A stretch of DNA of 64,000 bases from Bryum argenteum. Its lineage: Eukaryota > Streptophyta > Bryopsida > Bryales > Bryaceae. Below the pieces are notes generated by a model. It worked only from the letters and a program-made list of their open reading frames with translations. It searched no databases and was not told the origin of the DNA. A program made the position numbers and the translations under genes. Location of the stretch: positions 14,268,345 through 14,332,344 of the forward strand of contig CM073326.1 in the NCBI GenBank assembly GCA_037043015.1, in the 5' to 3' direction. Positions within the stretch are counted from its first letter, which is position 1, and the number at the start of each line of letters is the position of its first letter. Shown piece after piece: positions 35,933-60,832 of this stretch.

Positions 35933-36125
35933 TAATCCAAGACTTCTCTTGATTTTCTGAAGGGCTTCATCCTCCCTTGTTTTTTCAAACGACAAAAGTA
36001 GGACATTGATTAGATCGAGGAACTTATCCACCCTCGTGGTAGTGATTGAAGATAGCCACGTAACCGGGACGCATTTGAAGGCTTTGCGAAGCTGAAGAGT
36101 TGATTGAGAGGTGTTGCTTTTTGAG

Positions 36126-37280: not shown

Positions 37281-37306
37281 GACTCAGTCGGAGGCGTGGA
37301 GGCAGG

Positions 37307-39678: not shown

Positions 39679-39700
39679 CAGGGATGTCAATCCGGACGTC
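39679..39700 (+). repeat. hAT left terminal inverted repeat
   Basis: CAGGGATGTCAATCCGGACG, immediately inside the TTCACCAC duplication and inside the gypsy integrase frame. A GGACGGACGGACGTCCGTCC palindrome follows at about 39,716. Confidence 0.85.
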
Positions 39701-39844
39701 TTTTGGGTTTTTTTGGACGGACGGACGTCCGTCCGGGCGGTAAATCGGAATTACTATGTAGTAAATTTTTTAACCGTCAGATCGTATTGAAAATCGCATC
39801 GTAGCCCTTCAAATAGTGTTGTGAGGGTAGGTGATTACCGTTAG

Positions 39845-40268
39845 ATTGAATCGGGCGGCCCTGGACCGTCCGATTGGCCTTGCCCACCGACCGGTCGACG
39901 CCGTCGAATCGGTCGCTTGATCGGCCGCCGGCCGTCCGATCGGTCGCCGGCCGTCCGATCGGTCGCGGGTTCGGTCGGCCGTCGGATGGGCCCCGGTCGG
40001 CGTCGGCCGTCCGTCCGATCGTCGCGTCGGCGTCGGCCGACCGACGGTCGCGCTCTCCGTCGGCGGTCGATCGGGCGCGCGCCGGTCGGGCGGCGATCGC
40101 CGTCCGATCGGGTGGTCGGCCGCCGTGATCGTAAGGTCGGCCGGGCCATCGGTCGGGCCGGTCGGCGGCTCGGCGCCGGCCGTCCGATCGGTCGGTCGGC
40201 CGCGGCTGATCGGTCGCGCCGGTCGGCCATCGGCCGTCCGATTTAGGTCGCCGGTCGGCCATGCGACC
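39845..40268. repeat. GC-rich array 1 (left subterminal)
   Basis: About 420 bp of CGGTCGGCCG / CCGTCCGATCGG words in both orientations. Open frames across it are Arg/Pro/Gly runs and are not genes. It directly abuts the TATA box of the kinase-like gene. Confidence 0.9.
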
Positions 40269-40274
40269 GCGGCC

Positions 40275-40282
40275 TATATAAG
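40275..40282 (+). promoter_or_regulatory. TATA box of the kinase-like gene
   Basis: CCTATATAAGGCC lies at the inner edge of GC array 1. CTCCTCACTTCT follows within 30 bp, a phrase also found downstream of the RING-gene promoter. The first ATG is about 165 bp downstream at 40,447. Confidence 0.65.
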
Positions 40283-40446
40283 GCCGACCGGCCTCCACTC
40301 TCCTCACTTCTTTCCTTCGTTATCAGGGTGCGGAGTAGCTGTAGGTTGGAAATTTTTAATTTTCATCCACTGCTCACTATCCTCTGCGGAGGAAAGAAGT
40401 CTCTTCATTTGTAAGGGGGGAGATTTTGCTTTTTTTTTTCACAAAG

Positions 40447-41936
40447 ATGCCCAAAGATGGGGCTGGCGGTAGTGGGGGGAATCGAGGTCGGAGACCAAGG
40501 GTTCATAGACATTTGGAGAAGTGGGAGCACCCATCCAATCAGTGCAAGAACTTTCTTCGGGAGAATGTAATCGTGCGATTTTATGAGGCTAACAGTCTTC
40601 CACGTTTGTTTAGCAAATACGTGAGATACAAAGAGGAAGCTGTGGCCAAATTCAAGGACGACATGATGGACCTCATGATGGAAGCGCTCCAAGATCCGGT
40701 GTGGAGAACGGAGACTGATAAGCGTGGTTTTACGGACTGGATGGAGGATAGATTAGTTGATGCTATCTGGAATGCTGTCGCCATATTGAAGAGGTATGAG
40801 AGAACCACTCGAGCGGGTGATAAGGAGTTCAGGGATGTAGTATTGAGGGCGGAGGCTTTTCAAGAAGCGATGAAGCCGTATTCCAATAATGCAAACCGGG
40901 TTGGTTCCATAGGATGGTGGCGCACGGAACAAGGAAGGTTAATGGGAGTGGTTCGTACGAATAATTTGGTGGTAATTCCTATGACGGCCCGTATCATCGA
41001 GCTTGAGAAGAAGACTCTAAGGGGAGGATACGGCACAATTTCCAAAGTTCACATAAGAGGGGTTGCGGGTATTGAAGAGTTTTGGGAATTTGCTGCTAAG
41101 ACTCCCATCCATGCTGTGACACGACCAGACTTGGCCAAGGTGGAGCATCAGAATGAGGCGCTTGCTGTGAGGATACAACATCCCGGTGTTATTCGTTTTA
41201 TTGCCATTCATGCAAATAAATTCCAAGGCTATACGTATTGGTGGAATGGCGGCACGATTCGATCGATGTTGGCTCTTGATGCAAGATATGGAGATGATGT
41301 TCATGGAGAGATCGGACTCTCACCTCATTCTGATGATGAGCTTATTCGAGCTTGGCGGTTGGTCGGTTCCGCAAAAAACGAAGCGAGCTTGCTTGGGCTT
41401 TAGTGCATATCATGTGTGAAGTCCACCGGTTGAACTACCTCCACAACGATGTGTCTCCAGAGAACATACTTCTTCACTTTCCTCAAGATGAATCACGGGT
41501 GTATATTGGAGTATGTGATTGGGGGCTAAGTACGAGCATGGATGATAAAATGAGGTCCTTGTATACGTTTACAAAACCCCAAGAGCGAATTGATACTCTA
41601 CAAGCACGATATTGGGTAGATCCTCGGGTGGCGTACTTGTACAAACGGAGTGATGACATTCACATTATTCCCGTTCTTGATTGCGCTTCGGAGGAGTTTG
41701 CTACGGCACGAATAGCACAACGCATCCTCAAGAAGAGCATGTCGAAGGCCTACGAGAATTGCCAAAGTACAACGGGGCCTGACCGGTGGTGCAATCAAGA
41801 CTTGGCAAATGCTTTTGACCAATACTTGGAGATGGTGGCTGATGCAAAGTATACGTTGACCCACGTTGTCAACCGCTTCATGGAATCATTCCATTGGCCC
41901 GTGCCAAATGATCATTATCGCACCAAGTATGATTAG
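40447..41936 (+). pseudogene. Protein-kinase-like gene carried by the hAT element
   Basis: From ATG 40,447 (MPKDGAGG) an N-terminal region of about 190 residues has no known domain. The kinase fold follows: glycine loop GGYGTISKV (about 41,023), a Lys in EFAAKTP, a helix-C/strand segment ending IQHPGVIRFIAIH, and a hinge-like YTYWWNGGT. A one-base frame change near 41,350-41,380 precedes the second part. That part has the catalytic loop LHNDVSPENILL (Asp and Asn kept, HRD Arg replaced by Asn) and CDWGLS in place of DFG. It ends at TAG about 41,936. The retained Lys, Asp, Asn and second Asp argue for an originally active kinase. A kinase is not needed for hAT transposition, so it is cargo. Confidence 0.75.
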
Positions 41937-42639
41937 CAAATTAGTTATGCGCATTTCTTTTAGTTCTTCCGGCTTTATTAGATTTTTAGATTCTTCATTG
42001 AAGTTCTGATGTAGATGTAGGCAAATTTTTTGTAGTAAAGTGTATTACATGCCTTCTATATGTATCGGCTTTAAGTACATTCTTGTTTATATATACCTTG
42101 CACCAATGACTTCTTCTCCATTGTTTGTTATTTTATTTTATTACTTCTTACCTTCAATAGAAATATCTCCAAATCTTCATGAACAATATTTCAGAATGTA
42201 TAATGAATTGTGGAACTTCTTCATTACATCAACCTTGCGTAGTTGCGATATTAATGGTTTGTCCGAAGTCACCAAGCATAATATGACATTTCTTACATAT
42301 ATTTTTTTTTTGAATGAATTGATGAACATATTATATGTTAGGTGAGGTGTGAGATGTGAAAAAGGCTTAAAGCCAAACAGAAGAAATTATTACCTCCAAG
42401 TGAACTTATAGTATAAAATACAAAGACATTGCCATAAAATCCTTGAAATAACAAATTACATAGTATATTAATATAGAACGATATAGTCCGATATTGGATA
42501 ATCCATTCATAAACAAAATATGGATTTCTGTATCCTCAAAATTGGCCCCTAGCAAGGCGAGAATGGTGTAGACATTATCCGCTGCCAAAAACTACATAAC
42601 CTTCACTACAATGACACTATGTATGATGATTTGTCATTC
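41937..42639. other. AT-rich spacer between convergent cargo genes
   Basis: Presumed 3' untranslated sequence of the kinase-like gene (+) and of the Gly/Tyr-tail gene (-). It has no open frame with domain content. Confidence 0.5.
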
Positions 42640-43966
42640 TTAATCCGATTCTTCATCATCGTCTTTACGACTTGGCGCAGTGCCGTAAGAAGGTGGTCCT
42701 CGAGAAGATTCTCCAAACAAGTACGTTTGCCTAAAGTTTCTTTCGGCCTCGAGCTGTTCAATGTATTCCTGCTGACTTAGAAGTGTGGCTTGTTGCAGAT
42801 CTTGTTGGTACCTCGCCTCTTCGTCCTCCGGAGATAGATAAGGTGCTGAAGGCATGTCGTTACTTCCGTATGCATTCTGACCATATCCATAATTTGTGTA
42901 GCCAACAATGTCTGATCTTCTATCATACTGACCTCCATACTCGTATGTTTCCTTCGGGTGTGATGGCCTACGGTACTCGGGACTTCCGAATGTTGTACCG
43001 TATTGGTTCCCACGATTGTATGGGTTTATAGGATGAGTTGGGCTTGAGTTGCATTGAGCATTGGATCCGCTACCCTGCTCACCTCCTAAACCATGTGTAC
43101 CTCCTGTATACATTGGAGATGGGTAGTTTGAACTAGATCCACCTCTACCGTACTCGCGTTCGGCTCCGCACGTGTGTTTCTTTGATGAGGTGACATATAA
43201 CTCACCGGAGTACCGAATTGGTGGTTTCCATGGTAATACCCCTCACTTCCCGTGCCAAAGGATCCGGTGCTTGACGATCGTCATGGTTTGAGTCTTCTTG
43301 AGTGCCCCCATATGCCCTTGGAGTTCCATGTTGTTGAAGTTGGGCATCCATATCACGGTGAACGTTTACGAATACGTAGTATAACAATCGCTTGGTCCCA
43401 TCCAATTTGTGGGAATGAATCGGTTTTTCGCGATCCAATAAATGCACGTTCAAACCTATCACGGTGGTCCAGTCAATGTCCTTGTGCGGGACTATTTTCA
43501 GCCCACACCATGGCCATGGTAGAATACAACATCAATTTCGGCCTTGTGTTCTTGATTCCAACGCAATTGTGACTTCGTGATATATCGTGCGCAAAATGGT
43601 CGCTCTTGCAACTCTTCACCTGGGCCTTCACGACGAGGACCATATTTCTCGCCGTCGTGCCGCTGCCATAACTTCATGATGTGGTACATCTTCACGTACT
43701 TCTTGCACATGGTGCAATTCCAAATGTCCGCCTCTCTCACGCCAACCCGGCTCGCTGCTTGAGTTTGGGTCACTCCATGCTTCCCAATCCATTTTTGGAG
43801 GGTCGCCCTTTGGTCGTGGAGACTTGGCCTCACCCTCGAACGTGAAAACTTCGGGCGCCATTTCCAAGAAATGACAAGTATGCGCGGTGGCGTGGGTGAC
43901 CCACGCGGACTCGAGTAACGTGATCGATGCGACTTTAAAAAAAGCCGCAACGCACAACTCATTCAT
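42640..43966 (-). pseudogene. Cargo gene with CKKYVKMY motif and Gly/Tyr-rich tail
   Basis: The start ATG at 43,966 (MNELCVAAFF) gives an N-terminal part that reads well to about 43,745. The frame then changes and continues with WNCTMCKKYVKMYHIMKLW, and on through RWNQEHKAEIDVVFYHGHG. It changes again (43,462-43,202: DGTKRLLYYVFVNVHRDMD) and ends in a Gly/Tyr/Ser-rich tail with a short Gln/Glu coil (43,113-42,640, stop after DDDEESD). The CKKYVKMYxIxKLW motif recurs in the RING gene at 49.5 kb. I recognise no family. Three frame changes suggest decay or sequence errors. Confidence 0.55.
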
Positions 43967-43989
43967 TCAGTGAGTGAGGACAATGAGCC

Positions 43990-44390
43990 CCTCCCCTTCT
44001 ATTTATGCCGACCGGGATCGGACGCCATTGGCCAATCGCCTTGGCCGTCCGATCCCGCCGGCAGCCGTCAATCGGCGATCCGGCCGGCCGGCGACCGCGA
44101 GACGACCGATCGGGTCGCGACGTCCGATCGGTCGACGGGCCGTCTGATGGCGCGGCCGATCGGTCGATCGGGCCGCCGATCTCCGCCGACCGATCCGCCG
44201 ACGGGGCGACCGGCCTCGGCTGACCGGCTGGCGACCGGCGACCGGTCGGTCGACCGCCTGGCGGCCGGCGACGGGTCTGGCGACCGCATCCGCCACCCGA
44301 CCGGGCGGGCGGCCGGCGATCGGGCCGGAGACCGGCGATCGGCCGGGCGGCGGCCGGGCGACCGACCCCGACCCCCGGGCGACCAGTCCG
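43990..44390. repeat. GC-rich array 2
   Basis: About 400 bp of CCGGCGACCGG / CCGATCGGTCG words, compositionally like array 1. It is followed by a CCTTCCGCGTCTCCCC tract that also follows array 3. Confidence 0.9.
43999..44010 (-). promoter_or_regulatory. TATA box of the Gly/Tyr-tail gene
   Basis: On the minus strand CGGCATAAATAGAAGG sits at the edge of GC array 2. GGGCTCATTGTCCTCACT follows, close to GGGCCTCATTTCCCCTCACT after the RING-gene TATA box, which points to a common promoter origin. Confidence 0.6.
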
Positions 44391-44399
44391 TCTATCCTT

Positions 44400-46805
44400 C
44401 CGCGTCTCCCCTTCCCCCTCCTCCTCTTCCCTCACCCAAAAACTCCTTGTTTGCACAACTTCGAACACTTCCTCGCCTTGCATGCCTGCATTTTCAAAAG
44501 TTCCATATTTAGCCTCTTTGGTCCACGTGGCGTCTAAATAAGGACAGGGAATGTTCTGACAAGGGAATGTCGGGAATGTCTTTTAGTCATAAACGGGAAT
44601 GTTTTATGACAAAGATACTATCGGCTTTAAATAAACCTATAATAAGGGACTCTTTGCAAGAGGAGGGAAGGCCAACAAATCTCCAAGCCAATTCACGCAC
44701 TTTTTGAGTTATGTTGTCCAATTAGCTTTAATTGAACAACCAATTTAGTGGGGCCAATTTTCCGAGTCATGAAGTCCTTTGGAGTTGAAGCTCATGTCTA
44801 GAAGGGTAGCCAAGGCCATGGGGCCAATTCTTATTATTAACTAAAGTCCATGTTTTTTTTTGGTACACATTTATTTTTTATTTTTTGTTTTCTGGAATTA
44901 TTCTTCCCTAACACCTTAACAATCATGGCCACCATTTCGTCTTTTATCGTCACGGCCAAAAAATGTTTCATATTCAATTTCAAATGTAATGATCTCGCAT
45001 GTAGTGATGATCCAACGGTTGAAGATTTCACACTACTACATATGGTAGTTTACTCAAGATCCTATGGTTGAAATTATAAAGTATATCCAAAAATATTGGA
45101 CATAGCCCCTTTGTAGTGAAACCACCTATTCTCGTACACTTAAGGAAAATTGAGGGAATCTATATACTTGGTGTGAGAAAGGAGTGGGTTACTATTTTTC
45201 ACGGATAGGAAATAGAAAAATTTATCCATTCTCACTAGGAGATTTTGTCATTTCTTGGCCCCCATTCATGACTTGCCCCGTACTGTGTACCCTGAGGTGG
45301 CCCTAAATCCCCTCTAATTACATTCCAAAAAATTTACCTAGTCCTTGGTGAGAATATATTGATGTCTCACATTGGAGAGATCCAAGTATATATGAAATGT
45401 AGGTGATCATGTGTGAGCATTTACTTTTCATAACTTTGGTCTTACTGAGTTTGTCAATATTTAGACTTTCTATTTGGGCCTTAACATTTCCACAATGTAT
45501 GGTCTATATTAATTGATGGGTATTTGGAAATTACTCCGTCGTTGTGTATTCTAATTAGTAATACTTATTATAAAAAATATGGTGCATAAACAATTAATTC
45601 TATTATTCGCTATTTTTGTTTGACAACCTTCAACTAACCTAGGAGAATATATATAATCTAGTACATATGATTAATTGTAGCATTATTCTTATTGTATGGA
45701 TTTGAATAGTTACTTATTTCCCTCTTACCAAGGTAATTGAAATAAGTTTTCATTGTTACTATTTTTGCAATCATAAAATAAGAGAAATAAATAGGGAGAC
45801 AAATAAATTTTAAAAAATATCCCACCCTCTAAGTGTTTAACATATGGCAATAATGGCATCAACTCCTAAATTTTTAAGCATATTTGATATTGTACAAGTA
45901 TAGTACATTAGTACTAGGATTAGATGTTATATCAAATTGATTATTCGTATACTATGATTGATTGATTTAGGAATAGAATATTTTGAAGAGCCATCACTTC
46001 TTCATTTTCTTGTATGTAATGGATACATTCTCCGAGGATAAACTTTAAGTTCTTGGTTAAAGATGTATGAATTACTATGTAGGCCTCTAGGGTATAGGGT
46101 TTAGGGTATAGGGTTTAGGGTTTAGGGTTTAGGGTTTCGGTCTTGAGGATTTGGGGTACATTTCATTTTAATCCTAGTTTTTGTGTTGCAAAGCTTTGCA
46201 AATACAATTGTGTGTGGATGTAAAATAATGGACTCTTTGTATGTATGGTGTAGTTCTCAATTATATTTTACATGGATACAAGTTGCACTTCTCTACATCG
46301 CATAGTTAATGTGTGCAAAATAATCTATTTTGTATTTATCATTTTTGATTGAAGATGTTATTGACATGGAATAAATCACAAATTTATTGCAAAGAATATA
46401 TAGGTACTATATTAAACATCAACATACGAATTATGATTCCAGAGTCTTCAATCTCATAGCCTATTTTAAACCAAAATTGGAATAGAGTTACTATTGTAGG
46501 TCATGTGGCTTAGAGTTTAATTCATACGACCTCATAGATCATAACGTATGAGTCATCAAGTAGTGTTTGTACGAAACATTTTTGAATTCGTGAAGATCTA
46601 TACTTTTATGGAGCTCACTCGAAATGGTTATGAACTTAAAATTTAAAGTTCAAATGTATCCGTGAAAAAAGAATCCTTAGCATTTCGGAAATCAACATAG
46701 GATTCCTTTTTCATCGTGTAGTAATTATCGAAAATGGAGTAATGAGAAATCTTTGAGAAATAAAAAGAGGATCCTATGCAATTTTATCTTTTTAGTTATG
46801 TATTT
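44400..46805. repeat. AT-rich segment, copy 1 of a large duplication
   Basis: Starts with GTTTGCACAACTTCGA and GCGTCTAAATA landmarks and ends with AGGATCCTATGC. The same landmarks in the same order occur at 47,070-48,710. The copies are diverged and carry different internal indels. No gene was found. It includes the telomere-type tract near 46.1 kb and a region (44,936-45,120) resembling the small TTAA element at 48.3 kb. Confidence 0.7.
46088..46140 (+). repeat. Interstitial telomere-type repeat (TTTAGGG)n
   Basis: About seven units of TTTAGGG or TATAGGG in a row, within AT-rich transposon-internal DNA. TTTAGGG is the usual plant telomere repeat. Too short to be a telomere. Confidence 0.85.
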
Positions 46806-46859
46806 AAGGATTAAAAAAAAAAAAAAAAAAAATGTACTTTGGCCCCATTTTTCGATTTA

Positions 46860-47010
46860 GCGCCATCGGCGGGCGTGCGGCCGGCCAGCGTCAGCCGACG
46901 GCCCGGCGTCCGCGCGGCGGCCAGCGTCAGCGGGCGGGCCCAGCGTCCGGCGTCCGCGCCGCCCGACGACCGCCCGACCGGCGTGGGGACCGACCACACG
47001 CCCCCGGCGA
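46860..47010. repeat. GC-rich array 3
   Basis: About 150 bp rich in CGGCCGGCC / GCCCGGCGTCCGCG, preceded by an A-tract (46,809-46,832). It is followed by the same CCTTCCGCGTCCCCC and GTTTGCACAACTTCG sequences that follow array 2. No TATA box or gene is attached to this copy. Confidence 0.85.
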
Positions 47011-47019
47011 CCGGTCGGT

Positions 47020-48735
47020 CGGTCCTTCCGCGTCCCCCTTCCCCTCCTCCTCTTGCCTCTCCCCAAACTCCCGTTTGCACAACTTCGATCACTTCCTCGC
47101 CTTGCATACCGCATTTTCAAAACTACTATATTTAGTCTTTATTCTCCACGTGGCGTCTAAATATGGACAGGGAATTTTTCGACAAGAGAATGTCGGGAAT
47201 ATCTTTTTGTCCCACGCGAGAATGTTTTATGACAAAGATACTCTTGGCTTTAAATATATCCATTGTAATGGACTTTCTTGAAGGGGAGTTAAGGCGAGCA
47301 AATCTTCACGCCAATACACTCACTTTTTGAGTTGTTGTGCCCAATTGGCTCGAATCGAAGTAAACATTTAACAATCAATATAGTGTGGTCAATTTTCTCA
47401 TTTGTGAAGGCATTGAGAGTTCATGCCCTTGTTTTTAAGGAAAGCAAAGGCAAAGGGGTCAATTCTTATTATTAGTTAAAGACCATGCTTTTGATTGTAC
47501 ACCTTAATTTATTTTTGTTAAAATATTCGTTCTTAACCCCTAAAGATCCATGGACACCAAAGTGGAGGTTTCCTATTTCGGGCAGCTTATATGAAGAGGT
47601 CAAAAGTAATAATTTTTTATTACATTTTGACTAGGTGGTCCTTACACCGCTAATTGCATGTGGTAAAATTTGCATATCCAAATTCCAAATTTACAACGTA
47701 CATCTATCATTTTTACGTTTGAAGTCCATTAAGGGCAGTTAAATTTAGTCTTTGTTTGAAATTCTTTTTGGAAATATGTTCATGAACAATTTACTACTTG
47801 ATTCCAAAGTGACCCAAGTCAAAATGTTTGTTTATTTCACAAGGGTACTGTTGAAAGATTACAAAAATAATCTTCACAATTTCTAGTAATTTCCGATATA
47901 AGTCATATAACTCTTTCTTCGATTGATTGTTTTGAAAATATAAAATTTTAAATAGGCATCTCTTCTTCATTTAGAGTATCTAGTGGATAAAATCACTCGT
48001 GAATAGGATTTGTGGTTTATGGTTTAGGATGTATGAATAACTCTTTAGGATGAGTTCCAAAATAAGTGTCCTACATTAAGATTAGGATCCAATTGACATT
48101 CTCAACCATGCAATATTGGAATAGAGTTACTGTTGTAGGTCATGTGGTTAAAAGTTTGATTCATGAAGCCAATGGTCAATTAAATTACAAAAGGAAAATA
48201 AAGAAGGAAGATATTGATTCGAAACCAAATGAATGCCTTATGTTTGAAACATCGATTAATTTGTGAAGATTTACACTTTAAAGAGTCCACTGAAAATGGT
48301 TATGAACTTAAAATTTAGAGTTAACCCCTAAACGACCACGGCCACCGATTCGGCGTTTACAGTGAAGGAAAAAATAAATTACAGTCAACTTTAAACGTTA
48401 TGATCTCACGTCTAATGATGATCCAACGGTTAAAAATAATCACGGTACTATCGATGGTAGTCTACTTCAAGATCCTACGGATGAAATTATCAATAATTTC
48501 CAAAAATATTGGACGTACCCCAAATAGTTCATAGTGGTCAGTGTTGGGATGTCAAGCTCCCGAAACATTGTGGATTTTTAAGGGTTAAGATGGATCCGAG
48601 AGAAATAATATATTGCATTTCAGAAATCAACATAGGATTCCTTATTTCAGTGTGTAATAATCACTGAGAATCAAATAACAATAAACTTTGCGAAATAAAA
48701 AAGGATCCTATGCTATGTAAGATCTCTGAATTTTA

Positions 48736-48738
<3 letters not shown>
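47020..48738. repeat. AT-rich segment, copy 2 of the large duplication
   Basis: Diverged direct copy of 44,400-46,805. It starts inside with GTTTGCACAACTTCGA and ends with AAGGATCCTATGC before an (AT)n run. It contains a TTAACCCCTAAAGATCC block from 47,533 related to the 24.8-kb MITE, and a separate small TTAA element at 48,321-48,588 that copy 1 lacks at the matching site. Confidence 0.7.
48321..48588 (+). mobile_element. Short TTAA-flanked MITE with an empty-site paralogue
   Basis: TTAACCCCTAAACG at the left and TTTTTAAGGGTTAA at the right enclose 268 bp. In copy 1 of the surrounding duplication (near 46,650) the same flanking words, AAATTTA-AG and -TATCCG, are joined with only TTCAA between them. 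That is what an unoccupied TTAA target would look like after one change. The interior resembles 44,936-45,120. Confidence 0.65.

Positions 48739-48796
<58 letters not shown>
48739..48796. repeat. (AT)n microsatellite
   Basis: An uninterrupted run of about 29 AT dinucleotides, a likely source of length variation. Confidence 0.95.
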
Positions 48797-48802
<6 letters not shown>

Positions 48803-48844
48803 TAATTTGTATTTAAAAAAAAATTGAAAAAATTTTAAAAAAAA

Positions 48845-49060
48845 CGCGGCCGCCCACATCGGTCGGCCGCGTTGGTCGGCAAGCATCGGTCGGCCGCATC
48901 ATCAGCGGCCACGATCGGCGGCCACATCGGTCGGCGGCCCGCCGGCCCGCCCGAACGACCGCCACGATCGGCCGCCCCGATCGGTCGGCCGGATCGACCG
49001 CCACGATCGATCGGCCGGCCCGCCCGCCAAGACGGTCGGTCGTGGTCGTGATTGGCGAAG
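48845..49060. repeat. GC-rich array 4
   Basis: CGGTCGGCCG / CGGCCACGATCGG words as in array 1, directly upstream of the RING-gene TATA box. Confidence 0.9.
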
Positions 49061-49102
49061 CGCGGCCGGTCCGGCGGCGGTCTCTAGGGTTGGGAGGAGG
49101 GG

Positions 49103-49111
49103 GATAAAGGC
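49103..49111 (+). promoter_or_regulatory. TATA-like box of the RING gene
   Basis: GGGGGATAAAGGCC lies just inside GC array 4. GGGCCTCATTTCCCCTCACT follows, the phrase shared with the other cargo promoters. First ATG about 195 bp downstream at 49,304. Confidence 0.5.
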
Positions 49112-49303
49112 CTTTGGGGCCTCATTTCCCCTCACTTCTCCTTGTATTCATCCATCTCAACCGAGCCGCAACCGTGGGCATTAGCTTCTCGTGTCTTTGC
49201 ATTTGTGGTGGCGGGGAAGTCGGCGTGATACTTATGGGCTTGCTGCATCGAATTTTTGCGTACTTGGGATATTTTGGGGTATTTTTAATACTCCCTACTC
49301 TTC

Positions 49304-52300
49304 ATGGCGACGGATATTGATAACACGAACATGGAGGTGTAGCATCGAACAAACCTTGAGGTCACTGCGGCGAAAAACCACAAACGCAGATTGGTGGGGA
49401 CCGAGTTGGTTTTACATGAGACACCGTCAAAGAGAGTGAAACCAAAAGGAGCGAGACATGAGTTGCACTACGATATCTTGGATAATGAGGCCATCAAAGC
49501 CGAGAGCGGTTGGGCTAATGAACCGGAGGAATCTTGGAGAATGGCGACGTGCAAGAAATATGTGAAGATGTATCGCATTGGGAAACTTTGGCCTCGAGAA
49601 TGTCACAAAGTTAATACCAATAATTTTACTTGCAACCCTCAAACATGCAAGGATGATCACTTCCTTCATCGTCTTTGAAGAAGTTTGGGTGGCATTGTTT
49701 GGAACTCGTCCCAAGAGCAAGGGTTATTTTTCATATACGCTCTTGAGCATGGTGTATCTTGAGCTCATATTGAAGCGCAAGGTGAAGTGGAGCACATTCA
49801 CGGAGTAGTGCATATCCTCTTGAATCGGGAGAAATCAAAAGGATATCCCACGATAGGTTTGATCAGAATCAAATTCTACAAAGGCCTTATTGCGTGATTT
49901 TGAGGAGGAAAACTCATGAGACGGCGGAGAAGGAATCTCCTCCAACAACCACGACACATCAGGAGGATGGAAGGAATATGGTTGCTACGGATGCCCCAAT
50001 CGTAGAACCAACTATAACTGATAGGCTCGAAGGTGCAAACGTAGTTGAAGAACCTCGTGAAACCCCGGTACCAACACCAGAGGAGGCAGGGCCAAGTGAA
50101 CCACGGGAAACCAGAGCACCAACTTCTCCCATGGATGACATGGATCTCGATTCGGGTGCGGCGCCAATGTTCGAGAGGTATATGTCTTATGAAGTACCGG
50201 ATAACACATTGGATGAGTGGATGAAAAAAACAAAAAGTTTGGCAGATTGGTGCAATAAGGTAGATAAAGAGGCCGGTTTGGAAGGGAATCATTGGCCTGA
50301 GATTACGGGTGAACAGATAACTGATCTAGGGTACTACTTGAATATGGGGTCAAAAATACTTGCGGATATGGCTCCAAGATTTGTGGGGCTGGCTCATACT
50401 TTTGCAGGTGTCATGCCCAACATTCTACTAGCTGCCAACAATTTTGAGGTACTCGTAGATCGGTTTCAACCTCTACTGAAGGACCAAGTGAAGACTGAGC
50501 TAATCATTGTGAAACAGGAGAAACAACAGCAAATTACGCAACGTCTCCTAGACGAGTTCTACAGGGAATTGCGGTTGTTTGGCCAAGGTCCTGCTAGCAA
50601 GTATGAGGCGAAGTACCAAGAAGCAATCCGCCAAAAGGATGCGGTAGAAGCATGGGCGGATGACCAATTAGCCTCTGTTCCATCACAGAATGACACTCAG
50701 GGGGCTTCATGTAGTCATGTTGTTCCAGAATGTGATGCGGGTGGTAAAGACGATGGAAAAGAGGATGGTGAAAAGGATGGTAATAAAGATAAGGGGAAGA
50801 CCATTATCGGGACTTCTGATAGTCTTTTTCTTTCACAAATTGATGGGGGTGGTAAAGGGGATGGTGAAGAAGAAACGAGAAAGACGTATATCAGGGATTT
50901 ATCTCCTCTCAAAGAGGTTAGTGAAGAGGATGGTAAAGAAGATAAGGGAAAAACCATTATCGAAATAGACGATGATGACGGTGATGAAATTCGGGGGGAA
51001 GTGAAGTTAATATCACAAAAGGAGATAGATGATGCACAGATTGAGCGACAACGAGCATGGGCAATGGAGTTCGCAGCACTGAAGAAGGAGAGAGATGTTA
51101 CAGTTGCGAAATTGGAGCAGGAAGCAAAAGCATGCTCAATGAAGTTGGAGGCTACAAGTAAAGAGAGAGATGAGGCAGTCGCTGAATTGGAGGCATTACG
51201 GAAAACCTTCAAAACGGTAGATTCTACAGAGGCAGGTCTCCACCTTCACCTACGCATACTACCATGGTTGGGATGGGTTCATCGACTTCAAGATAAGAGG
51301 AGCTTGGTTTCGAGGGCAAAAGAAGATCTCAAATCGATTGCATCTACATCAAAGGAATCACGTGAAGTTGTAGATGCTTCATTGGAGAAGTTCTGTACAA
51401 ACAGATCGAAAAAACGATATGACCCCATAGAGGTCACTTTTTGGGGGGATATTGAAGAGATGATGGAGCGTACAAACTACTCTAAGATGGGACGAAACAA
51501 TGATGTTGATTGGACTATGAAGATAGAGGAAGGATGGGCGCCGTATAGTAGATTCTCATCGCACCTACAAGAGTCAGCTCGCATTGTAATCAACACATGC
51601 GACCCTCCTCCCGCAATACTTAAAGACAAATGTGCGGTGTGCCTACATAATTTTGGTCCGGAGGGCGCATACACGTTAGGCCAATGTGGCCATAACTTTC
51701 ATGTTACTTGCATATGCCGATATGCGATGACTAAATCGGTATGTCCAATATGTCGCTCCCCATTTAGCACGAGATTCTACGAGATGATGGACATACGAGA
51801 TCTTATGCCACCAGGGCACGAGTTCAACCGATGGAATCTTCCATTGGATCAATACCCGAAGAAATTTCTAAACTACTACGATTGGGAAATGCTCTTACGC
51901 GAGTACATCCGAATCAAAACACCAACTAGCCATTCAATTTGGTGGGGATCATGATCAGTTATTTTGGATGACACGAGATTACGAAATAGAGATCAGGGCG
52001 AGGAATATTGAAGGTGATGAGCAACGAGAGTTGTTTTGTCGTAATTTCGGGGGGCATTGGAGCGTCGAACACAACCGTTTCTTTCGATTTCCTCCAAAGA
52101 AAGTCGAAAAGGGAGAAGATGGTTCGTGGCACGAAATAACCGATTCAACAAGGCTTTGGTGAAGAGTACAAGAAGTACGATCATACTCCAATTGGAAGAG
52201 CTCGGTACTCGCGAAATTGGAGGAGGCCGCAATATTCGGATTTCGATACCGGAAAATTCTTTTGAAGATGTGGAGGTCTCTTATTGGGATGCGGTGAAGA

Positions 52301-52650
52301 AGTTTGATACGCGTATCGATGACGCCATTACATTTTGGAGAGAATGTCTTTTAAACCCAAAAGACACACAACTTCTATTATTGGATGAGTTTGAAGGTGT
52401 TGTACAGGATGTCATTGCAAAGATCGAGAAGGCCATGGAAATTTTACGTAACAAACAAGTGGATCCGAGCAAAAAGCGGAAGAGGCAATCGGGCGACGAT
52501 GGGGAGGATAGTTGGCAGGCAGGTATGAGAGGCGAAATCGCAGCGGTGGATCGAGAGTATGAAGAGGGCGGTCGAATTGCCCGTCCAAGTCAAAGACCGC
52601 GTACTCGCAGTGTAGCTCAGATTGGCCAATCGGATGGATCTTCAGTTTGA
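49304..52650 (+). pseudogene. RING-H2 (E3 ligase-like) cargo gene
   Basis: ATG 49,304 opens a frame interrupted by TAG at 49,340. It then runs to 49,678 and includes ATCKKYVKMYRIGKLW, shared with the 43.7-kb cargo gene. The main frame 49,894-51,954 (686 residues) has an acidic Lys/Asp/Gly tract, a coiled coil (about 51,010-51,210) and a RING-H2 finger at 51,631-51,756: CAVC, then CGHNFHVTC, then CPIC. Frame changes near 51,950 and 52,150 lead to a C-terminal part ending at 52,650 with KKRKRQSGDDG, a likely nuclear signal. RING-H2 proteins usually recruit E2 enzymes for ubiquitin transfer. The substrate is unknown. Stop and shifts make it broken as written. Confidence 0.7.
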
Positions 52651-53589
52651 AGATAGAACGGATGTTGGACCTTAAGTTCCACATATATAACTATATATAT
52701 ATATATGCTTTTTTTAGATTGTATGGTTGTTGTTTTAAAAATGATGCAAATGCCACCATTGATCCATGGGGCCTTATTTTTGAAGTAAAGGGATACAATC
52801 TTTTTTGATTTAATGTGCATTTCTTTTGTATGCTTGAGACAATTGAGAGTGAAGACTATCGTAAGACAAGTATGTAAAAATGTATGTAATATTTTTCAAA
52901 ACATTAAATGCAGTCATGTAGACAATAGAATCTCCAAATGCATTTGGAGTATAACAATAAAGTACTACAGTAAACTATAACTACAATTTCTATAATAAGT
53001 ATAAGTCCTATGAACCTATACTACATAAAGATGCCAAATTCAACTACTCATCAGGACCAGAGGATTGCTCATAATCGCTATCTCCCTTCACTTGACTCAT
53101 TTGGATCCCGTAGGATCATATTCATAATCGCTTGGAACCTCCTCTTTGATCTTGGGTTTATTCTCGGGACATTGTATATTCCCATACTTATGCCAAGAAT
53201 CAAATTCGGGGGAGATTAACAGGATCTTCGGTTTTTAGGCGGAACAATTGGAACCATTGCTGATTTCCGTTTATGCGACTTGGAAGTGTCAAGCATGTCT
53301 TTGTAACCCCGTGGCAGTACGAAGAACATTGGCATTCTTTAAATACCTGCCCAACGGTACATCAGAGTCACTAGAGATGCTCCCATATTTGGCTCTTGAA
53401 AGGGATACTAAACCCTTAGACGATTTCTCCAAGGTTGTCGTAACCCTTGTACTAGAGGGTTGAAATAAAGCGCGCGGAGTAGCACATTGATCAGATACTT
53501 GATCCTTACTACCGGATGCATATTATCCGCGACCGGATCAGAGCTCATAGTGCCCCTTGATTGTGTTGTTGCGCAGATGGTCTTTGCAT
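52651..53589. other. Spacer between RING gene and transposase tail
   Basis: AT-rich 3' sequence with a short AT repeat near 52,690. On the minus strand near 53,190-53,080 a coding-like stretch (KPKIKEEVPSDYEYDPTGSK) may be the last residues of the transposase in another frame. Confidence 0.35.
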
Positions 53590-55636
53590 CTATCGCCTCC
53601 TTTTCCAGGCGTAAACCATGGCGATACTTGGTAGGACGTTATTTGATTTGTCCATGCCGCCTTGTGTCATTAACCGGGCTAACGGCTGCTCATCATCTAG
53701 ATCATCCGCTGAAAGACCATGAGCGATAAAATCACCATTACCATCATGAACATTTGGAGCATCTTCATCATTTGAAGCGGGGAAGAAAGTCATATCATCA
53801 TCTTCATCGCCGAATTCAAAAACATCATTGTCATCAGACTCTGATTCGTCCTCGATGACTTCCTCATCATTCTCATGTACTTGGTCTTCCTCTAAATCCA
53901 AGTTCTCTCTATACCACCGCCCATCATCACTCAACTTATCATTCGCGAGCAATTTCGAGTTGGAATATATGTAGACCAAGTCATCAGCTCTGCCCGGTAG
54001 TAACCGATTCCGTTTCTTGTCGTGAACATAGGAGTAGCTACTCCAGTTGCGTTCGCAAGTTTGAAGAGGACACGATGTCGTGCTAGTATTCGCTTTGCAA
54101 TTGGAGAGAGGAGCTTAGCACAAGCACCTTCAAACTCCCACCATGCATGTGGAGCTAGTTTTTGAGTATTAGGCTCCAACATGTCATGGAATGGTGGACC
54201 CCTTACTCGAAACGCAAGAAATTCACTCACCACGTCTGCGTAATCCTCCACGGGACATAATTTTTGTAAAACACGCTTGCAAGCGATTGTAAGATCGGGA
54301 TCGTCAGCTAACTCTTGGTCGTGTAGTAAATAAGGATTTAAAAGTGCAGCCGCGCCATGTAAATCCGTTGTCATGAGCCGTTTCCGATGGTAAAACTCCT
54401 CTTTGCGGTGGCCACCTCAAGTGGTTCCAATGAGATGGGCGGTGCGTGCAAAGTATGGACATGTCTCTCAAGATCACGCATAATATGCCATGCCTTGCCC
54501 GTACTAGGAGCCTTGCCGTCGAATTCTCTCGGAGCGTACACCACGGGGCAACCATATCCCGTAGTCTTTTGCATTGCTTCCAAAACTCATCGCTCAACAC
54601 CACCTTCTTGACCTTACGTGAGAATATAAGCTTATCTCTATGAGATACCGTCTTCTTCGAGGCATAGGTTTGTGAACATAGGGTCGACAACAACTTGCTC
54701 CAATGATTCCTTGACCTCCAACAAGCGATCTATCATTATGAATTGACTAGCAAATCTTGTTTTCCGGGCATCGGGAGGTGAATTTCGCCTCGTGTTTATT
54801 TAAACACTGACTAGGGGCATTTGTCGCCTCTTGATAAACTTGACCATTTTCTTCGCCATGACCAAAGTATTCGCCATCCATCCGGCCTTTCCCAATCCTC
54901 CAACAACAAGTCCATTGCATGTGTCGCACACCCTTGCATGAAAATGTGCGGATATTTCTCAAGGACTATTCTTGAGGCATTGAGCATTCTGAAGCATTAT
55001 GCATGCATACTTGAACAATGTTCTCTGGTCCAACTTCTTCTATGTACTTCAACATGAGAGTTGACATGTACACCGCTGTTTTTTCTTGGCCAGTAGTATC
55101 GACAGCACCAAGAAAAAGCTCTCCGGCTTGAGTCACAAGCATCGCATTCACCAAAGGGCGACTAGTCACAGAAGACCATCCATCCATAGTCAAAGTTCCT
55201 CCAAACTTCCGAAGGCTCTCAGAGAGTCTACTATCTAGTTTCTTTTGTAACTCCGTCTTTACTTCTCCTAACAACCTTGTCCGAATGTCATGGTAGGATG
55301 GTGGAGCATAGGATTTTCGAAATCCCGCAGTCTTCATCACGGCAGCTTTGAACGCATCATTGCGGGCTACTGAGAATGGTATATTTGCTTCGTAAAAAAA
55401 TTTCGCCCAGAGTTTATCCAACTCCCGCCTATCCGCTTCTGCAAAAGTAGCTTCAATTGAAGATTGCTTCGTTTGCTTCATAGATCCAAACATCGGGCGA
55501 GTATCCCTTATTCCCCTCATATGCATGGAAGAAGCAGAGGTTGACCCTACCAAAAGATTTGTTGAATTCATGGGGGTGCCTAGTGAGGACCCTACACAAG
55601 AGTCACTCCTAGGGGTTTCAGGAATGTCATGTTTTG

Positions 55637-55900
55637 TGTTGAGATAAGGATAAGGCGCCCTTCGGAACTTAGAGAAAATTAGAAGCTTCCACTTAGACTG
55701 TAGTTCAACTGCTAGTTCAATAACGTAAAAGTATTAGTTCAACTGCTAGTTCAATAACGTAAAAGTATTAGTTCCACTGCCAGTTCAATAACGTAAAAGG
55801 TTCTGAATCCTTCAATATAAATATGTGGTCAGGGAACACTCATAATATATATATTTTCTCATTATCTTGATATACTCATTGCTCTCTGTCTCTCTCAACA
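55637..55900 (+). repeat. Copia 5' LTR (264 bp)
   Basis: Carries an extra copy of a 34-bp unit (TCAATAACGTAAAAGTATT core) relative to the 3' LTR; otherwise essentially the same. A TATAAATATG promoter element lies near 55,820. Confidence 0.95.
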
Positions 55901-56346
55901 CGTTATCAGCACGTGACTTTACCAGCCGAGAGTTTGATTTTAGTTTTCTTTTTGCTTTTCTACAATTTTTGGAGAGAGCTTGCATAGGGTACAAAGACCA
56001 AAGGACATCATTGCACAACGCATGCATGATAGAGTTTCAATCAGGTACGAAAATGATATCAACCAAGAGATAACACACTCGAAGATTCAAAGGAGGAAAC
56101 ACTCAACAGTCAACGTGTGTAGTTGGAAGAAACGATCCTCCAACCTCCAAACATATCCTATTGTCGTGTCTTTAGTTTGGTTTTGTACTTGGGCGTATTT
56201 TACTGTCTAAGTCAATCTAATTAGTCGGAGTGGTCCGGATCCACCTAAAATGTATGTTATGAGTGAGTCTTCTTGCATGTGCGGATCCTGGTTGAATTGT
56301 GATAACCTCACAAGCCGGAATTTTAATTCTAAGAGGTAAGTAACCT

Positions 56347-56640
56347 ATGCCCTGCCCATATTGGGAGGATGCCCCACTGAAGGGAAGCCGGAATTTTAAT
56401 TCCACGAGTGATACCTGGTTGAATTGTGACCTTGTCATGATTACCGGAAGGCAAAACTTGAAGTTTTGGGAGGGCCGGGCAAGAGTGGTTCTGCCCGGGG
56501 GATTCCCCCTCAGGATTGAGAGAGCTATGTATGCTCCTGATGCACCCCGGAGTCTGATCAGCTACCGGGCTCTGCTTACCAATGGCATTCACGCTTCCAC
56601 TGTTGATGGAGAAGGTGAATTTGATGGTGATGGATACCGG
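56347..56640 (+). pseudogene. Copia protease-region fragment
   Basis: The frame contains LRIERAMYAPDAPRSLISY, resembling the C-terminal part of Copia protease regions (a VLYVP-x-NLIS-like block). A possible DSG site upstream is not seen. It is followed by low-similarity sequence to 56,950, where the internal deletion probably lies. Confidence 0.5.
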
Positions 56641-56961
56641 GACCGACTGGCCTTTACGCATTACCCATCATGGCGGACGCGCCAAGGGAATGTAATTTGG
56701 CGGTGCTTCCGAAGGCCTAAATGTGGCATAAGACGCTCCTGCATAGCAGTGGTAGCGATAGAACGAACAGCGATGAGACTCGCTTGTTCAGCAGTGGTAG
56801 CGCATAGGCGCTCCTGCAATCTCATGGTACTTGTTGACGCCTTGGGGCGCGCCTGATATCATCACCTCAGGAGGTTCCATACTCATCAAGGCTTCACATG
56901 CCGCGATGCCTTACCTTGCATCTTTGTGCTTTGTTGAGATTTTGTCTTTGTTATCCTCGCA

Positions 56962-57963
56962 GTTTATGTAGATGACCTCAATTTGGTGGGTACTGACGCA
57001 TTGTGCACCGAGGTTGAGGCGCTTCTCACTACTCAGTTCGAGATGAAACTCCTTGGCCGCACCACGTTTTGTCTTGGACTTCAGGTATGCCATCTTCCCG
57101 ACGGGAGTATTCTTCTCCACCAAGACACTTACACCAAGAAGTTCCTCAAGGCATTTAACATGTCCAACGCCAAGTCCCTTTCGGCACCAATGATTGGAAG
57201 GAGCAGCACGGGAGACGACCCGTACCGACCTTGCGAGGAGGAGGAGAATGAGAAGGATCAGCAGAAGTACCTCGCTGTGGTCGGAGCGCTGCTTTACCTC
57301 GCAACTCACACTCGCCCCGACATCTCATTTCCTGTTAGTGTGGTAGCTCGTCACGGGCGCAAGCCAACTGATCGACATTGGCGCGGGATGAAGCACCTTC
57401 TTCGATACCTCAAGGGAACGGAAGATTTGGGTCTACACTACACGAAGGAGGCGAGTCCTAACATCACGGGATATGCAGATTCCGGGTACATCACGGACGA
57501 GATTAGTGGCAAGTCCCAGACAGGGTATATCTTCCTCAAGAACGGAGCTCCGATATGTTGGAAATCTGTAAAGCAGACCGTCACGGCGATTTCGACTAAC
57601 CATGCGGAGTTGATTGCGCTTCACGAAGCCGCTCGAGAGGCGGTTTGGCTCCGGACTATGGTGGACACGATTTCAGAGCAATGCGGGATGAGCTCGCAGC
57701 CCAAGGCGACCATTATCTTCGAGGACAACGCTGCTGCAGTTGCCCAAGTTTCTGCCGGTTTCATCAAGGCAGATCGAGTTAAGCACATCCCACCTCAACT
57801 CTTCGGGTTTATGCAGGACCTCGTGGAGACGAATCAGATCGAGGTGAAGAAAATCGACACTGCGCATAACATTGCAGATATGCTAACCAAGGCACTCCAG
57901 CCTTCTAAGCATCGAGAGTTGGTTCGCGCAGCGGGTCTCCGCTCACTTCGAGACCTCATGTAA
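56962..57963 (+). CDS. Copia RT C-terminal part and RNase H
   Basis: Open from VYVDDLNLVG (56,962), the RT catalytic YVDD, through LGLQV, DIS-type blocks, to an RNase H with GYADSGYITD, KQTVTAISTNHAELIAL and IFEDNAAAV, ending NIADMLTKAL and a stop at 57,963. This is the intact 3' third of a Copia Pol. It lacks an ATG, and an AG acceptor-like CCTCGCAG precedes it, so expression would need a fusion or splice. It cannot support transposition alone. Confidence 0.85.
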   Translation, partial: VYVDDLNLVGTDALCTEVEALLTTQFEMKLLGRTTFCLGLQVCHLPDGSILLHQDTYTKKFLKAFNMSNAKSLSAPMIGRSSTGDDPYRPCEEEENEKDQQKYLAVVGALLYLATHTRPDISFPVSVVARHGRKPTDRHWRGMKHLLRYLKGTEDLGLHYTKEASPNITGYADSGYITDEISGKSQTGYIFLKNGAPICWKSVKQTVTAISTNHAELIALHEAAREAVWLRTMVDTISEQCGMSSQPKATIIFEDNAAAVAQVSAGFIKADRVKHIPPQLFGFMQDLVETNQIEVKKIDTAHNIADMLTKALQPSKHRELVRAAGLRSLRDLM

Positions 57964-58054
57964 AGGGCGCACTCTTTTCTCCACTTGAGATTTTTCCCAC
58001 AGGGTTTTGCTCGAGGAGGAGTTTTTAATGAGGCGTTCCTTGGTCGAGGAGGAG

Positions 58055-58284
58055 TGTTGAGATAAGGATAAGGCGCCCTTCGGAACTTAGAGAAAATTAG
58101 AAGCTTCCACTTAGACTGTAGTTCAACTGCTAGTTCAATAACGTAAAAGTATTAGTTCCACTGCCAGTTCAATAACGTAAAAGGTTCTGAATCCTTCAAT
58201 ATAAATATGTGGTCAGGGAACACTCATAATATATATATTTTCTCATTATCTTGATATACTCATTGCTCTCTGTCTCTCTCAACA
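58055..58284 (+). repeat. Copia 3' LTR (230 bp)
   Basis: Matches the 5' LTR except for one missing 34-bp unit. Directly followed by the TTTTG duplication. Confidence 0.95.
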
Positions 58285-58801
58285 TTTTGAAGCACCTGGA
58301 ACGTCCGCGGATGGAGTGAGAGAACATTCACCGAGAAATAGTTCCAATTCTCCGTTATATGGAGGGAACTCCCCACCACATCTTAAAAATAACTGCCTAA
58401 TTTCTCTAGGCAGCTTCGGGCAAAGGGCAGAACTCGAATCCCTATGTCCAGGAATCTTCTCGTACCCATAATGACTCAAATTCCGACTCTTCTTCTTGAA
58501 ACAATTTACACGACATAGTGAGCCTTTGTAGGAAGGACCCAGACGCTTTGCCTTCTTTCTCGATGTCTCTAAACCAAGGCTCATGTGGAGCAGGGCCCAT
58601 TTTGATAAATAGGACGCCTCAAAGTCTTCAGTAATGGTGGGACCGTGACGGGGAAAAAATTGGCAAGAGTTCCTTACCGAAATCTTCACTTCCGAACTCA
58701 ATACCTTCCAAGCAATGTACACATAAAATGAATTATGTGGCTCATAGCTCTTGGAAAGTGTTCAAAATTCGGAAGTGAAATGAGACTCAATGTGTCTTCT
58801 C

Positions 58802-58811
58802 TTATATACCA
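58802..58811 (-). promoter_or_regulatory. TATA box of the transposase
   Basis: On the minus strand GGTATATAAGAG, between GC array 5 and the first transposase exon, with the direction pointing inward from the right end of the element. Confidence 0.65.
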
Positions 58812-58879
58812 TCCAACTCCGAATATGACCGTTGCAATTTGAAATTGAAATGCTCCTAAACCGTTGGATGCTCAAAAGG

Positions 58880-59112
58880 GCCATCTGGCCGTCGGCGGTC
58901 GCAGGATGCGAGGGCCGGTCGCAGTGGCCGACGGCCGGACCGACGGCGGTCGCCCGCCGCCGACGGCGGTCGCGGCCGCCGACGGGCGGACCGACGGCCG
59001 GTCGCTTGGCCGACGGCGGACCTAAGGCCGTCGCCGGCCGCCGACGACGCCGGTCGCTCGCAGCCGGCGGCCGACCGGTCGGTCGGGCCGACGAGAGAGG
59101 TTGGGGACGGTC
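58880..59112. repeat. GC-rich array 5 (right subterminal)
   Basis: CGACGGCCGGACCGACGG-like words for about 230 bp, mirroring array 1 at the left end. The two outermost arrays are the expected subterminal repeats of the hAT element. Confidence 0.9.
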
Positions 59113-59221
59113 GACGGGGTGGTTCGACCAACGACGCACTTCGTTGGTCATTTACCCTTGGTAAAACGACCAGATTTTCTAAGTCACGGACGGTCCCGGA
59201 CCCTGCCGGACGTCCGACGGA

Positions 59222-59247
59222 CGTCCGGGCCGCTATGACATCCCCTG
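59222..59247 (-). repeat. hAT right terminal inverted repeat
   Basis: On the minus strand CAGGGGATGTCATAGCGG, matching the left end with one extra G. A GGACGTCCGACGGACGTCC-like inverted tract lies just inside, as at the left end. Confidence 0.85.
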
Positions 59248-60530
59248 TTCACCACTAGCAGGACATCCAGGTCATGAGGGTGCAGCGTGACTTGATTGCA
59301 CGTGAATATACGTGGCACAGGTTGACACAAGATGTTCGGAGATTTATGCGGAGGCGCAGCGTGTGTGGAAAATCGAAGATTTGGCGGGAGCGAGAAGCAA
59401 GGGTTGCTAAAACCTTTGCCAATTCGGCACGGATTTGGTGAGCTCTCCATTGATTTTATTACGGATTGGCACCAGCCAGCCGATCGTACAAATATCATGG
59501 TTGTGATGGACCGTTTGTCCAAATCTATCATTCTTTGTGCCTATGAAGACAATTCGTGCACTTGATGTGGCTCACAAACTTTTAGAGCAAGTTTTTCAAA
59601 GATCACGGATTACTGCAGCAATTGTGTCGGATCGTGGTAGTCAATTTGTTAGTCGCTTTGGGATGAAGTATGCAGATTGATGAAGATTACGCGTCGGTTG
59701 TCGATGACTTTCCATCCGGAGAGCAGATGGTGCAACAGAGAGGGCGAATCAAGAGCTTGAAACATATCTTCGTATTTTCACGACATTTGAGCATGAAGAT
59801 TGGGCTTTTCGATTTGCCGATCGCGATGATGGCGTTGAATAATCGTGTGTCGCGATCTATAGGTATGTACGCATTTTTATGACTCACGGTTATCATCATT
59901 CGGTCATGAATATTACTATACCCGAGGAGGCAGGTTCTTCGTTGTCACCGGCGGAAAAAGGACGCAAGCTTGTTGAGCACTGGCGTAATTCAAGTGAACT
60001 GGCAACAACGGCAATGGCCATTGCGCAAGAGACTCAAGAACGCGGTCAAATACACGGCCTTTCGGTGGCGAGGATTTTTGTCCGGGTGATCGTGTGTAGT
60101 TGAAGTTGAAGAACATCAACACGTCCCGGTCAATCAAGAAGCTTGATTGGATTGCTCTTCCTTATCGTGTATTGGAGTGCGTAGGTACACATGCGGTTCG
60201 TTTCAATACACCGTCAGGTATTCATCCTGTTTTTCATGTGGGTTTAGTGAAGAAGGCAGCTGAGGATCCGTTGCCTTCCTAACTACCTCATGATAATGAG
60301 CCCGGTGTTGTTTTGAGCAATCCCGCTTTCGAGGCATCCACTAGCGAGGACGAGTATCTTTGTTGAAAGAGTGTTGCAACATCGACGGCGTCGTGGGCGC
60401 GGTTGGCAACTACTTGTAAAGTGGACGAGGATGGCGGAGCCTACTTGGGAAACTTTGTTTGCCAATTACAAAATGTCATGGCCTTTAGAGCGATTACGAG
60501 CGCTGTTTGCGCGCGTCGTATCTTGATATT
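59248..60530 (+). pseudogene. pol: Gypsy integrase C-part and chromodomain
   Basis: Continues the integrase after the hAT insertion. One copy of the 8-bp duplication removed, the reading frame is continuous across the junction. It contains RRQGLLKPLPI and IDFITDW (first catalytic Asp region), VSDRGSQFVSRF near 59,625 (second catalytic Asp), and GIHPVFHVGLVKKA near 60,220. After a frame change near 60,362 comes a chromodomain-like stretch with WQLLVKWTRMAEPTWE (about 60,400-60,450). Chromodomains in this position direct integration to marked chromatin in chromoviruses. Several stops and shifts make it non-functional as written. Confidence 0.85.
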
Positions 60531-60597
60531 CCTTGGGCACATTCTCTTCTATGACACTTTTTAATTCATCAGCACAGGAGGAGGAGGAGGAGGCATT

Positions 60598-60832
60598 TGT
60601 CATGGGCCAAGGCCTCGTTCATAAGCTCGGATGTTCACTCGCTATTAATTTTATAAATAGAACTTCGGCAATAGAGCTAAAGTATAGCCTCGGCAGTAGA
60701 GCTAAAGTATAGCCTCGTGAGATTGAGCCAAGAGATTAGTATATAAGGGACTCTTATTCATTGTAAACCTAAGTCTTGGATCAATATATTTCTTTTGTAG
60801 TTTTTGCTTGTTTTGACAGCTAGACTCTTACA
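60598..60832 (+). repeat. Gypsy 3' LTR (235 bp)
   Basis: Near identical to the 5' LTR apart from one missing 25-bp unit and a few changes at the unit junction (CGTGAGATTGAGCC against CGGCAGTTGAGCC). It is followed directly by the ATCTT duplication. A purine-rich tract at about 60,577-60,594 precedes it. Confidence 0.95.

Follow-up and report, generated by a model that had tools for sequence, protein, structure and literature searches.

Why would a plant hAT transposon carry genes for a protein kinase and a RING-H2 protein alongside its own transposase? The question is raised by a 64,000-nucleotide stretch of the moss Bryum argenteum (GenBank assembly GCA_037043015.1, contig CM073326.1, positions 14,268,345 to 14,332,344 of the forward strand), referred to below as the window. 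An initial annotation, made from the letters alone, had delimited there a 19.6-kb hAT element holding a transposase gene, a kinase-like gene, a RING-H2 gene and a gene with a Gly/Tyr tail, each with its own promoter. Our analysis gives this element exact ends, places it between two other insertions, and finds CpG-dense arrays of the motif CGGTCG next to each of the four genes and close to the two ends. We read the locus as a large hAT element in which the kinase, the RING-H2 protein and the third protein serve the element as accessories and which moved recently as one unit, a reading to which we give even chances.

Boundaries and target site

The hAT-type element occupies positions 39679-59247, a span of 19,569 bp. 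Its terminal inverted repeats (TIRs) are CAGGGATGTCA on the left (39679..39689, + strand) and CAGGGGATGTCA on the right (59236..59247, - strand), which differ by one base in length, and they are flanked by two perfectly matching copies of the 8-bp target site duplication (TSD) TTCACCAC at 39671..39678 and 59248..59255. A gapped scan of 39300-59700 (20.4 kb) for inverted ends flanked by 8-bp repeats returned this pair as the only one with CAG ends at edit distances up to 4, and the TIRs and perfect TSD first claimed around 19.6 kb proved exact. Among 300 Markov-1 sequences of equal length, none held a CAG-ended pair at edit distance 1 or less; with any ends allowed, 100 Markov-1 sequences gave a mean of 0.08 pairs and at most 1.

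The target is a Ty3/gypsy element, hit in its integrase region. Joined without the hAT element, the flanks read ..STHDSP-LAGHPGHEGAA in a single frame, with a stop 11 residues beyond the joint; past that stop, integrase-like reading resumes in another frame. We take this motif to resemble the zinc-binding start of a gypsy integrase. An 8-bp TSD and short TIRs are both features of the hAT superfamily, whose TIRs measure 5-27 bp according to the excerpted text of PMC12506042, and with TTCACCAC on both sides, a target frame that crosses the joint and the short ends given above, membership of 39679-59247 in this superfamily is well supported.

Order and age of the insertions

The gypsy element that received the insertion runs from 35674 to 60832 (+ strand, TSD ATCTT) between long terminal repeats (LTRs) of 259 and 235 bp. 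To the left of the insertion, Pfam recognizes RNase H domains (E=1.1e-32) and, weakly and below cut-off, a zinc knuckle (E=0.0013). The two LTRs are identical at 230 of 230 bases over two blocks, between which, in a repeat, one has 29 bases and the other 5. No difference in 230 positions corresponds to a 95% upper bound of about 1.3% on their divergence (rule of three), and gene conversion between the LTRs may be an alternative source of the identity.

A copia-type LTR element (55637..58284, + strand, TSD TTTTG), recognized by its RVT_2 domain (E=4.5e-10, Pfam), is nested in turn in the transposase gene of the hAT element. Its LTRs differ only in a 34-bp tandem unit, present in about three copies in the 5' LTR (55701-55799) and two in the 3' LTR (58119-58183). 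The insertions thus followed the order gypsy, hAT, copia. Because the hAT jump is bracketed by two recent insertions, it was itself recent, and the cargo moved as part of a unit that measures 16,916 bp once the nested copia element is removed. The 19.6-kb span of the initial annotation stands, but the copia element had gone unmentioned, and the hAT element proper is accordingly smaller.

As a separate observation, the coding region of the gypsy element (36108-39670 and 59256-60832) is split into many frames despite its near-identical LTRs. The hAT genes are broken in the same way, which suggests a defective source or assembly indels.

The transposase gene

The claimed hAT transposase is present on the - strand, between about 53590 and 58620 (outer limits approximate). 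It matches DUF659 (PF04937, E=1.3e-21, 77.3 bits against a cut-off of 34.7), a marker of plant hAT transposases, and a continuing piece scores E=7.3e-05, below cut-off. The hAT dimerisation region (PF05699) appears in two frames, both below cut-off (E 0.12 and 0.19), and the N-terminal pieces (58282-58761 and 58445-58618) have no Pfam match and look BED-like by eye alone. Frame changes, together with the copia insertion, break the gene up. No Mutator-type Pfam family was found among the scanned open reading frames (ORFs) of the window.

The kinase gene

The kinase gene (40447..41936, + strand) encodes a member of a protein family about 495 aa in length. Used as a query, its first ORF found 29 protein matches with identities of 39-63% and a best E of 1.5e-96; most of the full-length ones measure 490-500 aa. 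Two of the 29 carry an organism name, in both cases the moss Ceratodon purpureus, and one Ceratodon cluster comprises 126 sequences, its named record bearing the locus tag KC19_VG055000. When the Ceratodon protein P0001 was aligned to the window by tblastn, the match ran gap-free through residues 18-494 and changed frame once, near 41364. In a tree built from 306 residues of the window's first ORF and 28 of the 29 matches, this ORF pairs with the fragment P0023 (support 98/95), and the two join Ceratodon P0001 and P0002 (100/99). This placement and the two named matches fit a moss as the host.

The active-site residues K212, D329, N334 and D352 occur in 17/17 aligned relatives (17 of the 29 matches were used) and the catalytic-loop His in 16/17; the window copy itself retains WEFAAK, HNDVSPEN and CDWG. 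With the beta-3 Lys, the catalytic-loop Asp and Asn, and the DFG-type Asp all conserved, the product is a predicted protein kinase. It is nonetheless distant in sequence from ordinary kinases. Pfam Pkinase scored below cut-off both on the second kinase piece of the window (E=4.5e-05) and on P0001, the first piece matched no family, and the best PDB match in a profile search reached E=0.0012, although 9 of the 29 matches carry a precomputed Pkinase annotation. A structure model of low confidence (predicted local distance difference test (pLDDT) score 63, predicted template modelling score 0.41) matched kinase or pseudokinase domains in all 50 matches listed, at TM-scores of 0.25-0.34 by query length, and supports the fold class only. 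No relative was confirmed in the viral contigs of IMG/VR (25 pattern-matching stretches) or in the genomes of GTDB (36 pattern-matching stretches).

The RING-H2 and Gly/Tyr-tail genes

The RING-H2 gene (49424..52644, + strand) is interrupted here by four or more frame changes and is a member of a family whose proteins reach 1,110 aa. Its presence had been noticed before, but its extent had been underestimated: the open frame at 49786-51954 forms the middle part of the gene, which is longer than this ORF. A search with words from the first 500 residues gave no match, and one with words from residues 490-722 gave 15, which reach up to 1,110 aa and align from 49424 to 52644. All eight zinc ligands (C3H2C3) occur in 15/15 relatives, and the window ORF matches PF13639 (E=2.6e-09, Pfam), which suggests a RING-H2-type protein of the predicted ubiquitin-ligase (E3) type. 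None of the RING relatives was confirmed in IMG/VR viral contigs (15 pattern-matching stretches). An AlphaFold model of the protein (mean pLDDT 37) was unusable.

The interrupted Gly/Tyr-tail gene (42640..43962, - strand) is, like the kinase gene, present as claimed. It had been described as unknown, and its tail indeed has no Pfam match, but with RING relatives as queries, 43834-43497 turned out to be similar to the N-terminal part of that protein (3 of 5; best E 1.5e-06 with P0033, the linked pieces lying in more than one frame). At the nucleotide level, 43665-43708 and 49549-49592 match in inverted orientation over 44 bases at 77%.

The CGGTCG arrays and the spacer

Five GC- and CpG-rich arrays are distributed over the element. 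Array 1 (39840..40262, + strand) is subterminal and lies upstream of a TATATAA (40275) and the kinase gene; array 2 (44010..44360, - strand) stands beside CATAAATA (44006), upstream of the Gly/Tyr-tail gene; array 4 (48845..49075, + strand) precedes a weak TATA-like GATAAAG (49103) and the RING gene; and array 5 (58880..59100, - strand), again subterminal, precedes a TATATAA (58808) and the transposase gene. Array 3 (46865..47050) is an orphan. Of the 71 CGGTCG sites in the window, 53 lie inside the five arrays, whereas 200 shuffles of the array bases gave 2.7 on average and never more than 8. The observed/expected ratio of CpG is 1.43 for the pooled arrays (1.23-1.58 singly) and 0.70-1.06 for nine other stretches, a high density that may mean that this DNA stays unmethylated. 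All four genes begin within about 300 bp of an array, and the motif common to the arrays links the cargo genes with the element ends and the transposase gene. The earlier view of a large hAT element with several genes, each by a promoter-like array, is supported; that each gene has its own promoter holds as far as the array beside it is concerned, but the promoter role itself is putative.

Array 3 owes its orphan position to a tandem duplication within the spacer at 44309..48840, which consists of two related tandem copies (44309-44934 versus 46943-47559, 76%) with array 3 between them and with some small pieces in a different order. Two further observations concern this spacer. It holds, at 47532-47893, a partial copy of an interspersed repeat of about 765 bp that occurs elsewhere in the window at 13519-14251 and 24816-25582 (inverted, 72% alike), the partial copy being 83% alike to that at 24816-25582. 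It also holds, at 46088-46137, about seven copies of TAGGGTT, the plant-type telomere repeat. Rfam gave no match in the window at its gathering threshold.

Repeated arrays might themselves be the ends of separate insertions, an outcome that the initial annotation had named as a refutation. With any ends allowed and edit distances up to 2, the scan returned 12 pairs with 8-bp repeats, namely the true one at distance 1 and 11 at distance 2; 9 of these 11 match an array with an array, as follows from the array repeats, and the other two span 47097-49656 and 54182-54715. The same scan on 150 Markov-1 sequences, which do not model arrays, gave a mean of 1.97 pairs and at most 7. With CA ends and distances up to 3, a single inner pair was found (42184-47778), which is at chance level (mean 0.78 and at most 3 in 150 Markov-1 sequences). 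None of the inner pairs is CAG-ended, and the idea that the inner arrays are ends of separate insertions is not supported.

Discussion

That the kinase and the RING protein each have many relatives hints at working parts of the element rather than random passengers. The initial annotation had spoken of host-type regulatory genes, a description that is not well supported, since the kinase is far from ordinary kinases and the relatives of both proteins form many-membered families of their own.

Several points weigh against accessory genes that serve the element and travelled with it as one unit. All four hAT genes are interrupted in this copy, and the multigene layout is known here from one element copy alone. 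The limits of the five arrays (1,412 bp in total, GC 0.78) were drawn by eye, and the CGGTCG motif was selected after viewing word counts. TATA-like sites adjoin the four gene-linked arrays as counted without a chance control, and that of the RING gene is weak. The conservation of the RING zinc ligands is partly expected, because the matches came from searching that very region. Array binding and anti-silencing, the latter being the role that we favour, are putative.

The interruptions can be read in more than one way. The frame breaks are hardly post-insertion events, because they are so many, yet the gypsy LTR blocks are identical at every base; for the same reason, the frame changes do not count for us as proof of decay. 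The breaks either came with a source copy that was defective beforehand or are indels of the assembly.

Three other explanations of the gene content have to be weighed. The kinase and RING genes may come from another mobile family, or from host multigene families, and have reached this single hAT copy through nesting, fusion or capture, without being carried by the hAT family as such. Their matches are separate proteins without contig names, the central spacer holds duplicated and interspersed repeats, and the 11 inner pairs with similar ends and 8-bp repeats, 9 of them array against array, are what such nesting might leave; however, these pairs lack CAG ends, those between arrays follow from the array repeats, the separate CA-ended inner pair stands at chance level, and arrays of the same CGGTCG motif lie near both ends, by the transposase gene and by each cargo gene. 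We regard this origin as doubtful, though a serious candidate. Simple passenger capture, in which full-length host genes were taken up as in Pack-TYPE or Helitron capture and play no role for the element, appears improbable. Plant DNA transposons, hAT elements among them, are described in the excerpted text of PMC8903248 as capturing coding DNA, and the interrupted genes of this copy would suit it. The same excerpt describes Pack-TYPE elements as non-autonomous, whereas a transposase gene is present here, and the cargo genes have many-membered families in which catalytic and zinc residues are conserved, residues that would be expected to be lost in neutral passengers.

Least probable of all, in our judgement, is a cargo that serves the plant, whether by a benefit in, for example, stress or reproduction or through domestication. 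The Ceratodon kinase cluster of 126 sequences could be cited for it but is not evidence of benefit as such; a selfish role agrees better with the high copy number and with the place inside a transposon, these data reveal neither a phenotype in the host nor expression, and nothing here favours domestication.

If the accessory genes do serve the element, the arrays would act as putative binding sites and promoters that jointly switch on the four genes, and the kinase and RING proteins would work on the element's behalf. Their most likely targets would be host silencing factors at the arrays, which they would modify or remove, or else the transposase, which they would tune. The working model would be the VANC proteins of Arabidopsis VANDAL elements, which release short-repeat arrays from silencing, and the alternative role would be to regulate the transposase itself. 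Spelled out in full, the proposal is a lineage of plant hAT elements with a kinase, a RING-H2 E3 and a sister of the E3 that has its N-terminal part in common with it. The CpG-dense arrays, which also lie at the element's ends, would be the common drivers of these genes, and the element would use phosphorylation and ubiquitination to disarm host silencing at its own arrays. This specific version is tentative, and we consider it possible but well short of even.

Comparison with known systems

The element resembles Ac/Ds-type hAT elements in its 8-bp TSD, short CAGGG-type TIRs, DUF659-type transposase and repeats near the ends. Ac is not known to carry any gene besides that of its transposase. 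It measures 4.6 kb (excerpt of PMC3260210), whereas the present element measures 16.9 kb and has three further genes.

VANDAL elements are Mutator-like, whereas the transposase here is of the hAT type. The two share the general plan of a DNA transposon with accessory genes and tandem arrays of short motifs in noncoding DNA, represented here by the five CGGTCG arrays. They differ further in the accessory proteins, which in our element are a kinase and a RING-H2 protein with a predicted anti-silencing role. The targets of VANC are tandem repeats of short motifs in the noncoding DNA of VANDAL elements, and VANC is the worked-out case of anti-silencing that we found for plant DNA transposons (both from the excerpted text of PMC10398659).

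Pack-TYPE hAT elements, as excerpted in PMC8903248, are similar in that plant hAT-type ends surround extra coding DNA. The present element has a transposase gene, albeit an interrupted one, and so falls outside their non-autonomous definition, and its cargo matches protein families over nearly the whole length. ToxhAT of fungi is likewise a DNA transposon with cargo. According to the excerpted text of PMC12506042, it measures 14 kb and, once called hAT, is now considered by its authors, on its TA TSD and 74-bp TIRs, likely of the Tc1/mariner type, with ToxTA as the proposed name; it thus offers no hAT precedent. The multigene layout of our element fits none of the described kinds compared.

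In the open-licence literature, covered by titles and the beginnings of abstracts, no such element was described, which is weak evidence of absence. Neither the main text of a gene-capture review (PMC13317346, 2026) nor a review of giant transposons (PMC6431247) contains the words hAT, kinase or moss. If the proposed role is true, plant DNA transposons would also deploy signalling enzymes, whether to oppose their hosts or to act jointly with them, and mosses would provide a tractable haploid system in which to test this. It would also place a large multigene unit within the hAT superfamily, from which, per the excerpt of PMC12506042, the cargo case of ToxhAT has been reassigned.

Other features of the window

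Outside the gypsy element, a GC-richer block at 28909-34110 holds long + strand ORFs, six of which have no Pfam match above cut-off. The sequence INGQHTWHAAKSI in 29837-30808 appears ParB-like by eye only, and an Ala/Glu/Lys-rich ORF follows it; the block is possibly another multigene mobile element. On the - strand, an ORF at 16409-17653 matches DUF7869 (PF25273, E=1.3e-23). A satellite-like tandem array occupies 21694-24725, with overlapping direct repeats in many registers that are 74-80% alike.

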